From contig JAJRYE010000015.1 in assembly GCA_024275895.1 (NCBI GenBank), positions 1 through 45,543 of the forward strand: a stretch of DNA of 45,543 nt, written 5' to 3'. Source of the stretch: Alphaproteobacteria bacterium. Lineage in GTDB: Bacteria > Pseudomonadota > Alphaproteobacteria > Rhizobiales > BM303. Position numbers and translations under genes: made by a program. Under the pieces are notes generated by a model. The model was not told the origin of the DNA. It worked only from the letters and a program-made list of their open reading frames with translations, and ran no database searches. Below, one piece after another: positions 8,468 to 45,238 of this stretch; the stretch's first letter is position 1; every line of letters begins with the position of its first letter.

Positions 8468-8529
8468 GAAACAGGCAGCCTGAGGATCAACAGCGTGGAC
8501 AGCGAGAAAAACAAATGCGGAGCCGCCAT

Positions 8530-8680
8530 GGCCGTGGGGTTATGCTGATCCCGGGAAACCTAGTAAACTAGGTGGGCGCCAAATGAGAGGAACCACGGTT
8601 CCAACCAGCGTCGGCTCCCTTCAGGATCTTAAGGCCCCGGGGAAATGCGCCCACACGCGCACAGGCAGCACCGCTAATCT
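8530..8680 (-). ncRNA. ssrS: 6S RNA
   Basis: The minus strand between zapA and fthC carries features I know from alphaproteobacterial 6S RNA: CCCCGGGGCCTTAAGATCC followed by AAGGGAGCCGACGCTGG, then GCGCCCACCTAG-TTTA-CTAGGT and TTTCCCGGGATCA. The two flanks, with CCCGGG-rich strands, can pair to make the long stem around the central bubble that mimics an open promoter and sequesters sigma-70 RNA polymerase. The location zapA-6S-fthC is the conserved one. The exact ends are estimates, since I cannot fold the sequence here. Confidence 0.82.
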
Positions 8681-21624: not shown

Positions 21625-22155
21625 TCAAACGTCCTTTTCAAAGGCGGACTGAATCCGCTCCAGTTGCGCATTCAGGGGATCGGATACCGCACTCGCCTCG
21701 GCCGCTTTTTCCACCAGCGCCGCATCAAGCCGGGCAATACGCTGCTGCAAGCCCGCCGCCCGCAGGATCAGATCGCCAAGGCGTTCCGGGAGCATTCCGG
21801 CCTCTTCGGAAAGTTTCACGTCAATTTCTGAGATCGGCACCATATTGGCCTTGGAGCGCGATTCTTCGGAAGTGATTTCGCCCTCGCCGACAGCGCGCTG
21901 CAAAAGCAGCCAGGACGCCATCTGCATGAGCCGGGTGGTCAGTTGCATGCTTTCACGCGCATAGCTCAGGGACCCGTCGCGCTCCAGCGCCGCTGATTCG
22001 CTGCGCCCGGGACCATCAAGATAGGCCGCCGTCTCCTTGACCAGATCCATTCCCTCACGAAACAGCGCTTTAAACAGGCCGGAAGTTGCGAATTTTTCAT
22101 CAAAATCCACGGTCCCGTCCTGCGGGGTTTCACCAAAAGATACGATATCGCCCAT
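21625..22155 (-). CDS. rcdA: RcdA, regulator of CtrA degradation (DUF1465)
   Basis: The 176-residue protein matches DUF1465: ATSGLFKALFREGMDLVKE, then SYARESMQLTTRLMQMASWL and LLQRAVGEGEITSEESRSKA, and a helical C-terminal tail. In Caulobacter this family member is RcdA, an adaptor that helps deliver the cell-cycle regulator CtrA to the ClpXP protease. Assigning the same role here rests on family membership. ATG 22155 is used because GAGGA lies 9 nt before it. A TTG at 22164 would overlap that site. A CtrA box and a terminator-ended RNA lie upstream on the same strand. Confidence 0.86.
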   Translation of the reverse strand: MGDIVSFGETPQDGTVDFDEKFATSGLFKALFREGMDLVKETAAYLDGPGRSESAALERDGSLSYARESMQLTTRLMQMASWLLLQRAVGEGEITSEESRSKANMVPISEIDVKLSEEAGMLPERLGDLILRAAGLQQRIARLDAALVEKAAEASAVSDPLNAQLERIQSAFEKDV

Positions 22156-22295
22156 AACTGCCAATCCTCAAATCTCACCCGCCAGAGGCAGGAAACGCCA
22201 GTTTACCAGAACTCCGTGACCGGGTTCTTAATTTCAGATATGAGCAATATCCACGCCAGCCGCTTTTAAAAAAATACGAAGCCGCAAAGTCGGGA

Positions 22296-22395
22296 CAAAA
22301 AAGAGCCGCGTCAACACGCGGCTCTGAAGTCTAACAGGGAGGCGTCAAACAGAGTGGACAGGAACCACTCCGGATCCAGATAACTGGATTACGCA
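22296..22395 (-). ncRNA. Candidate small RNA with three hairpins and its own terminator
   Basis: Read on the minus strand, the order is: hairpin ATCCAG-TTAT-CTGGAT (22374-22389), hairpin GAGTGG with a seven-base loop and CCACTC (22352-22370), an unpaired stretch containing CCTCCC (22337-22342), and a perfect 10-bp terminator stem AGAGCCGCGT / ACGCGGCTCT with a four-base loop (22302-22325). Six T (22296-22301) follow. CCTCCC is complementary to Shine-Dalgarno sequences, a feature of several alphaproteobacterial sRNAs. No ORF fits. The 5' end near 22395 is estimated from a CtrA box at 22419-22433. It could instead be an attenuated leader of rcdA. Confidence 0.6.
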
Positions 22396-22418
22396 TCTAC
22401 AGTTATTTCAAACAAGGC

Positions 22419-22433
22419 TTAACAAAGGGTTAA
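22419..22433. promoter_or_regulatory. CtrA binding box (TTAA-N7-TTAA)
   Basis: TTAA at 22419-22422 and TTAA at 22430-22433 are separated by exactly 7 nt (CAAAGGG), the full consensus for the cell-cycle regulator CtrA. It lies in an AT-rich region between rcdA and the DUF1192 gene. Relative to the predicted RNA on the minus strand it sits near the -35 position, as expected for CtrA activation. Confidence 0.6.
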
Positions 22434-22543: not shown

Positions 22544-22732
22544 TTATAATTTAAAAACAGAATCGGCGGCATTTTTCGATTTGTTTTTATGCTTTATCTC
22601 CCCCTCAAGGCGCTCGATTTCTTCTTTCAACACCTGGATTCGCATCTCAAGTTCGGCAATGGAAAGCGCGGAGACATCCTCACCCGGCGTGATTGTCCGG
22701 CTGGTTTTTCGCAAAAAATCTTCATCTTCCAT
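22544..22732 (-). CDS. DUF1192-family small protein
   Basis: The 62-residue protein starts at the ATG at 22730-22732, with AGGAA about 7 nt upstream. A longer frame upstream is unlikely. It has the DUF1192 pattern: MEDEDFLRKTSRTITPGED followed by LSIAELEMRIQVLKEEIERL, a short coiled coil, and a lysine-rich tail. The function is unknown. The gene diverges from the quinone oxidoreductase gene and lies near rcdA, an arrangement that recurs in Rhizobiales. Confidence 0.82.
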   Translation of the reverse strand: MEDEDFLRKTSRTITPGEDVSALSIAELEMRIQVLKEEIERLEGEIKHKNKSKNAADSVFKL

Positions 22733-22838
22733 GGCATTTTCCTCATGATTTGCGCCAGCTTGTCCCAAAGCGTACTGGACCTGCAAGCAAAAAAGTGCCA
22801 ATTCCGGTCAGGACTGTCATAAATCGGGATCCTTTGTC

Positions 22839-45150: not shown

Positions 45151-45159
45151 CGTTTGTTC

Positions 45160-45225
45160 CGTACCCCGGCCTTTTAGCAACTTCTTTTACGTGGCTTGCA
45201 AGCCGACCGGCCCAAATCACCACGA
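45160..45225 (-). promoter_or_regulatory. SAM-II riboswitch
   Basis: On the minus strand the conserved SAM-II core is readable: CGTGGTGATTTGG, then CGGCTTGCAAGCCACGT, an AAAAGAAG joining region and GCTAAAAGG. The CGTGG at the start and CCACG in the middle form the first stem, and the last part forms the pseudoknot with the joining loop. SAM-II aptamers precede met genes in alphaproteobacteria and repress on SAM binding. Here the target is metZ. The ends are approximate. Confidence 0.85.
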
Positions 45226-45238
45226 ATTCAACAGCGGC

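Follow-up and report, generated by a model that had tools for sequence, protein, structure and literature searches.

The window, the whole 45,543-nucleotide stretch of contig JAJRYE010000015.1 that we analyzed, carries on its minus strand a gene for a small RNA of about 100 nt (22296..22395) between rcdA and a DUF1192 gene. The RNA was identified by a match to the Rfam family RF02356, BjrC1505, and by its fold, and its start was placed from the position of the putative promoter. rcdA (DUF1465; Pfam PF07323, E 5e-50) is the next gene downstream at 21625..22164 on the minus strand, with a likely ATG start at 22155, and the RNA lies directly upstream of it, as the initial annotation had said. The upstream neighbor, also on the minus strand, is the DUF1192 gene at 22544..22801 (Pfam PF06698, E 4e-19), whose real start is probably an ATG near 22732. 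Past DUF1192 and a dehydrogenase gene, farther upstream of the RNA, the window encodes the named cell-cycle regulator TrcR (PF06242; 23970-24779), which is found upstream of BjrC1505 in 37 of 151 loci. The window also contains a 6S RNA (RF00013) at 8516-8674 (minus strand, 54.6 bits) and a SAM riboswitch aptamer, SAM_alpha (RF00521), at 45154-45233 (minus strand, 72.3 bits).

The small RNA is a member of the BjrC1505 family

In the Rfam covariance-model search, the match covers 22440-22296 and the full length of the model (1-140) with 88.3 bits, and the gathering score of RF02356 is 50 bits. Where the initial annotation had recognized no known family, there is one already catalogued in Rfam; the CtrA-type promoter is the new part. 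Direct reading and an alignment with 62 relatives place the BjrC1505 core, GAGUGG-N-CCACUCUGUUUGACGCCUCCCUGUUA, and the GCCGC terminator in the window RNA.

The 101-nt RNA folds with -43 kcal/mol, compared to -23.4 +/- 3.0 for dinucleotide shuffles (z -6.5). SL1 is a 6-bp hairpin (22374..22389, minus strand; ATCCAG-TTAT-CTGGAT) that is supported by the fold and by covariation. It is followed by SL2 (22351..22371, minus strand), a 7-bp stem seen in the fold and the alignment, whose loop is UUCCUGU here and CUCCUGU in most relatives. SL3 (22329..22350, minus strand) is a weak hairpin of the predicted fold with the stem GUUUGACG/UGUUAGAC and CCUCCC (22342-22337) as its 6-nt loop. An intrinsic terminator on the same strand (22297..22325) consists of a perfect 10-bp stem at 22325-22302 and six T to 22297. 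The two short hairpins (22389-22374 and 22371-22351), the perfect terminator and the call of a small-RNA gene that ends at it had all been read correctly from the sequence. CCTCCC was also correctly located, and as a C-rich loop it is of a putative anti-Shine-Dalgarno type; it had been described as an unpaired single strand, which did not hold, as it is predicted to form the loop of a third hairpin.

Covariation speaks for some of these elements. Two of the four consensus pairs of SL1 have two-sided changes that preserve pairing, and several two-sided compensatory pairs occur in the terminator among 63 sequences. SL2 and SL3 barely vary, so covariation is no test of either hairpin; the inner GACG/UGUU pairs of SL3 are nearly invariant, and covariation is neutral on them. 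That the core is constant in the named loci partly reflects how they were chosen, because these loci were found through an exact match. We conclude that the RNA is BjrC1505, with the structure and the terminator of that family.

The Rfam name and description of RF02356 mention no regulator, and the 5' third of the model corresponds here mostly to a CtrA-type promoter. The model draws 14 pairs in its first 43 positions. Over 90 sequences, 37.4% of these were standard pairs, compared to 37.3% after shuffling, when tested in a gapless register; with the register moved by -3 to +3, the share was 34-45%. Pairing in this register equals that of shuffles, and we reject the 5' helices as genuine RNA structure. 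Because the helices pair at chance level and the Rfam model includes the box, we read its 5' part as promoter.

BjrC1505 is found beyond the window's order

Among the window's genome and 60 near relatives, RF02356 matches 51 of 61 genomes at E<=0.001, and in 45 of these the score exceeds the cut-off. In a class-wide sample of 289 genomes it matches 30, and it has no match in any of 14 control genomes, Caulobacter vibrioides included. At least 120 stretches from named genomes contain the exact 23-mer of the core; among the matches listed (80 records) are Bradyrhizobium, Nitrobacter, Bosea, Stappia, Roseibium, Mesorhizobium, Phyllobacterium, Brucella and Parvibaculum.

We built a promoter-free model of the RNA from 63 sequences and ran it on the 289 class genomes. 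At E<=0.01, 79 genomes match, the window's genome among them. The class-level set used below comprises 23 loci with E<=3.1e-5, the best of the 79 matching genomes excluding the window's own; these loci span 14 families, 13 of which lie outside the window's order. That order was taken to be Hyphomicrobiales from the identity between same-order loci and named ones such as L019 and L130. Several genomes that were scored as RNA-negative (loci L182, L183, L184 and L186) have a diverged copy of the RNA before rcdA. Two or three copies are present in some genomes: G269 (contigs C10 and C15), G061 and G024. In G269, two copies lie close together on one contig.

None of the nine Trans_reg_C proteins in the draft assembly of the window's genome, which is 87% complete, is CtrA. 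This is probably an assembly gap; ctrA is encoded in a sister genome of the genus.

A CtrA-type box is conserved at a fixed place upstream of BjrC1505

A full TTAA-N7-TTAA box, TTAACCCTTTGTTAA, lies at 22433-22419 on the minus strand, as the initial annotation had reported, and is kept in relatives. The draft genome contains 31 such boxes and 32 instances of the reversed control pattern; a lone full box is weak evidence because the control is equally frequent. What exceeds chance is conservation at a fixed place and with a fixed spacing. We therefore measured the box across loci. Of 179 loci (L001, a duplicate of the window, was set aside), 152 had a strict anchor, and 115 nt of upstream sequence were available for 148 of the 152; the non-redundant promoter set, with less than 70% identity in the promoter, numbers 94. 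Four locus pairs that were the same record twice were removed in the non-redundant counts. Another 27 Rfam loci (L034-L060) without this anchor were inspected visually and were dropped before the counts; at least one of them, L059, is a false match that reads like a tRNA.

With a spacing of 7, a box that matches in 7 or more of the 8 bases is present in 91 of the 94 non-redundant upstream regions, and it is perfect (8/8) in 47. At other spacings from 3 to 12, boxes of at least 7/8 appear in 12-29 of the 94 regions and perfect ones in at most 4; the dinucleotide-shuffle expectation is about 10%. Since the Rfam model contains the box, we counted again on loci that had been collected with the RNA core only. 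Among 73 non-redundant regions recovered by the exact core 23-mer, 70 have a box of at least 7/8 with a spacing of exactly 7, and 38 of the boxes are perfect. Conservation also holds at the class level: of the 23 loci, which come from 14 families, 22 have the box, and other spacings occur in 0-8. The next six weaker matches (E 8e-5 to 2e-4) include the box at 7/8 or better in just one, which places the limit of the family near that E range. The box is conserved across the class at a fixed place and spacing. The initial annotation had tied its reading to hairpin conservation in related genomes; the box, the hairpins and the adjacency to rcdA are kept across the order, and the RNA and the box across the class.

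When 69 promoters were aligned on the box, the consensus was GTTAACC-N5-TTAAGCTTTC, followed by TATNA 26 nt past the start of the box. Information content is 1.3-2 bits per position in the half-sites and 0.1-0.4 in the spacer, with the exception of the C after the first half-site (1.6 bits). In the window, the position weight table of these 69 aligned promoters points to AATAAC (22402..22407, minus strand) as a likely -10-like element, 11 nt past the box and a partial match to the family consensus TATNA[CT]. If TATNA is the -10, the box would span about -38 to -24. A spacing of 7 nt is that of CtrA sites in the available text of PMC3616915 and PMC4287350. The sequence feature expected of a direct member of the CtrA regulon, a conserved TTAA-N7-TTAA at the promoter position, is present.

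The effect of binding has a sign that cannot be read from sequence. CtrA is both an activator and a repressor in Caulobacter, and the RNA could be repressed by it, or the motif could be used by another factor. We consider this unlikely. Across the family, the box sits about 11 nt upstream of the TATNA-like -10, where a -35 would otherwise be, and there is no conserved -35 besides it, which argues for activation over repression; the 7-nt spacing, being CtrA's own in the excerpts of PMC3616915 and PMC4287350, argues against another factor. We infer that BjrC1505 is transcribed in the window's organism and that CtrA would activate it.

The box is inherited with the RNA rather than with rcdA

Of the 132 loci whose flank is 900 nt or longer, 127 have rcdA no more than 1 kb downstream and on the strand of the RNA; the five without adjacent rcdA are L011, L018, L097, L098 and L149. 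DUF1192 lies within 1 kb upstream in 100 loci, and 136 of 151 loci have at least 600 nt of upstream flank. The near-constant presence of rcdA would be expected if the transcript were a long rcdA leader, with CtrA driving rcdA and the small RNA being an attenuator product released at the leader terminator. Published work is compatible with such a leader: CtrA sites have been credited to rcdA in earlier studies of this group (PMC2877005 and PMC3616915, in the portions available), and agrobacterial rcdA is described in an excerpt of PMC10469942 as having several start sites and a far-upstream CtrA site.

Genomes in which the RNA and rcdA are separated point the other way. In G010 and G016, two of the genomes behind these five exceptions, rcdA is found elsewhere in the genome and the RNA retains its box; a pattern search of the 480 nt upstream of the relocated rcdA found no box. 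The box staying with the RNA argues against a mere rcdA leader. In the class-level set, moreover, rcdA was detected adjoining the RNA in just 12 of 23 loci, a count that may miss diverged rcdA genes. The gap between the RNA and rcdA ranges from 62 to 571 nt, whereas the RNA core is nearly fixed, partly through the selection of the set. A leader that accounts for the whole story is therefore unlikely, and we rate a transcript of this kind as quite improbable.

Shared CtrA control of separate RNA and rcdA transcripts is possible. CtrA would then act on the small RNA at this box, and on rcdA at a second one or by way of partial read-through. Boxes of at least 7/8 occur in the gaps between the RNA and rcdA in 23 of 85 loci, and perfect ones in 7, above the counts at other spacings (3-12 and 0-2, respectively). 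In Sinorhizobium meliloti Ak57, Sinorhizobium K101 and Shinella, one full box precedes a diverged RNA and a second lies between its terminator and rcdA. The window's gap, on the other hand, has no second full box, and 62 of the 85 gaps have no box of 7/8 or better. In S. meliloti, rcdA mRNA was unresponsive to CtrA depletion despite CtrA binding by ChIP-seq at the rcdA promoter region as a whole, according to the accessible part of PMC4433202. A two-transcript unit of this kind is thus possible and, in our estimate, rather less than probable. This layout of two full boxes upstream of rcdA, flanking a diverged BjrC1505-like RNA, is seen in the Rhizobiaceae loci L276, L277 and L279; in L276, of S. 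meliloti, the boxes lie at 2670-2684 and 2844-2858.

The diverged copy of S. meliloti Ak57 scores 29 bits with the promoter-free model and has no Rfam match at E<=0.1. We suggest this diverged RNA as a candidate for the missing CtrA-dependent transcript in S. meliloti; because a second box is present, this is a suggestion and not proof.

No target is singled out for the C-rich loops

The initial annotation had called for target prediction with the CCTCCC loop and had raised the idea of a feedback circuit through rcdA. Duplex energies over 33 start regions in the window singled out no target. The loop is predicted to pair with the rcdA start region at -18.4 kcal/mol, second of the 33 genes (best -21.5), a rank that could favor feedback onto rcdA and is unremarkable for an anti-Shine-Dalgarno loop. 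The ctrA start region of the sister genome gives just -13.1 kcal/mol. As pairing energies single out neither gene so far, and the RNA is also found away from rcdA, we regard a loop closed by pairing with rcdA or ctrA mRNA as very improbable.

The reverse complement of the SL3 region occurs with at most 3 mismatches at 44 places in the draft genome, the small RNA gene included, compared to 9 for the reversed control; this excess may be due to composition. Twenty-nine other places were read as loci, and two of them are Shine-Dalgarno-like sites at a start codon: L229, whose product we take to be SCP2-like, and L225, presumably ferritin-like. L229 was rejected as a target, as its protein is present in only 5 of 31 genomes and the pairing site is not conserved in the three relatives that were read.

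BjrC1505 differs from small RNAs with known links to the cell cycle

CcnA of Caulobacter resembles the window RNA in having a CtrA box before a noncoding RNA with a C-rich loop in a cell-cycle circuit, but it is 182 nt long and lies in the replication origin (PMC8959179, in part), whereas the window RNA is about 100 nt and lies beside rcdA. The two are set apart by place and structure; with place and length differing and no RF02356 match in the Caulobacter control, we rejected identity. EcpR1 of Sinorhizobium is likewise a conserved rhizobial small RNA acting on cell-cycle genes, but the accessible text of PMC4414408 places it downstream of divK-pleD and describes it as stress-induced with a GC-rich loop, UCCGCCGCAUCU. 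That loop is absent from the window's 101 nt, whose neighbors are rcdA and DUF1192, and EcpR1 was excluded. GspR is a CtrA-tied small RNA of S. meliloti; it lies between SMc03844 and SMc03845 and has no known promoter signature, as stated in the available section of PMC5928217. Because of these neighbors, it was rejected as the S. meliloti homologue of BjrC1505.

The terminator half of mmgR/suhB (RF00519), SorX and SorY, CCUCCC-ACUU-GCCGC, is similar to that of the window RNA. Membership in mmgR (RF00519) was rejected at 31.8 bits against a gathering score of 41 bits. The 3' half of the window RNA (22288-22376, minus strand) resembles mmgR, SorX and SorY but scores under the cut-off of each; several alphaproteobacterial small RNAs may have a terminator module in common. 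The SmelA075-like RNAs are known under the names alpha-r14 and cuckoo. They would be expected to have several CCUCCUCCC loops, judging by an excerpt of PMC3927594, and the window RNA, which has one CCUCCC and one UCCUGU, was not assigned to them.

Discussion

The observations of the initial annotation are confirmed, and its interpretation is partly supported. We consider it probable that the locus encodes BjrC1505 as a trans-acting small RNA, about 100 nt long, that has its own CtrA-dependent promoter and may silence mRNAs through its C-rich loops. Phosphorylated CtrA would bind TTAA-N7-TTAA, which would cover about -38 to -24 and stand in for a -35 element, and would switch on the RNA late in the cell cycle; transcription would end at the RNA's own terminator. 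The two C-rich loops, UCCUGU and CCUCCC, would then probably pair with Shine-Dalgarno regions and silence the mRNAs; as read from the loops, pairing with mRNAs, anti-Shine-Dalgarno action and any targets are putative. By way of such an RNA, CtrA could also have a negative effect on protein synthesis.

In the open-licence literature, we found no functional study of BjrC1505, whose name occurs in one paper as a table entry, no use of the identifier RF02356 and no published link between CtrA and BjrC1505. Madhugiri 2012 is reportedly the original description.

Known links of small RNAs to the CtrA circuit are few, and most are confined to one species or one order. BjrC1505 is an uncharacterized, widely conserved RNA with a CtrA signature in almost every relative examined, a signature that can be tested in Bradyrhizobium, in Mesorhizobium or, with the diverged copy, in S. 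meliloti. We suggest that the promoter part be trimmed from the Rfam model RF02356 and that CtrA sites so far attributed to rcdA in this group be reassigned or shared. The pattern suggests a widespread, hitherto unremarked CtrA-controlled RNA. We more tentatively propose, at slightly less than even confidence, that the CtrA circuit has in BjrC1505 an ancestral arm common to the class, switched on directly by CtrA in most alphaproteobacterial orders, and that part of what is described as CtrA control of rcdA is the promoter of this RNA. If true, such an arm could help explain why CtrA binds at the rcdA region of S. meliloti without a change in rcdA mRNA.
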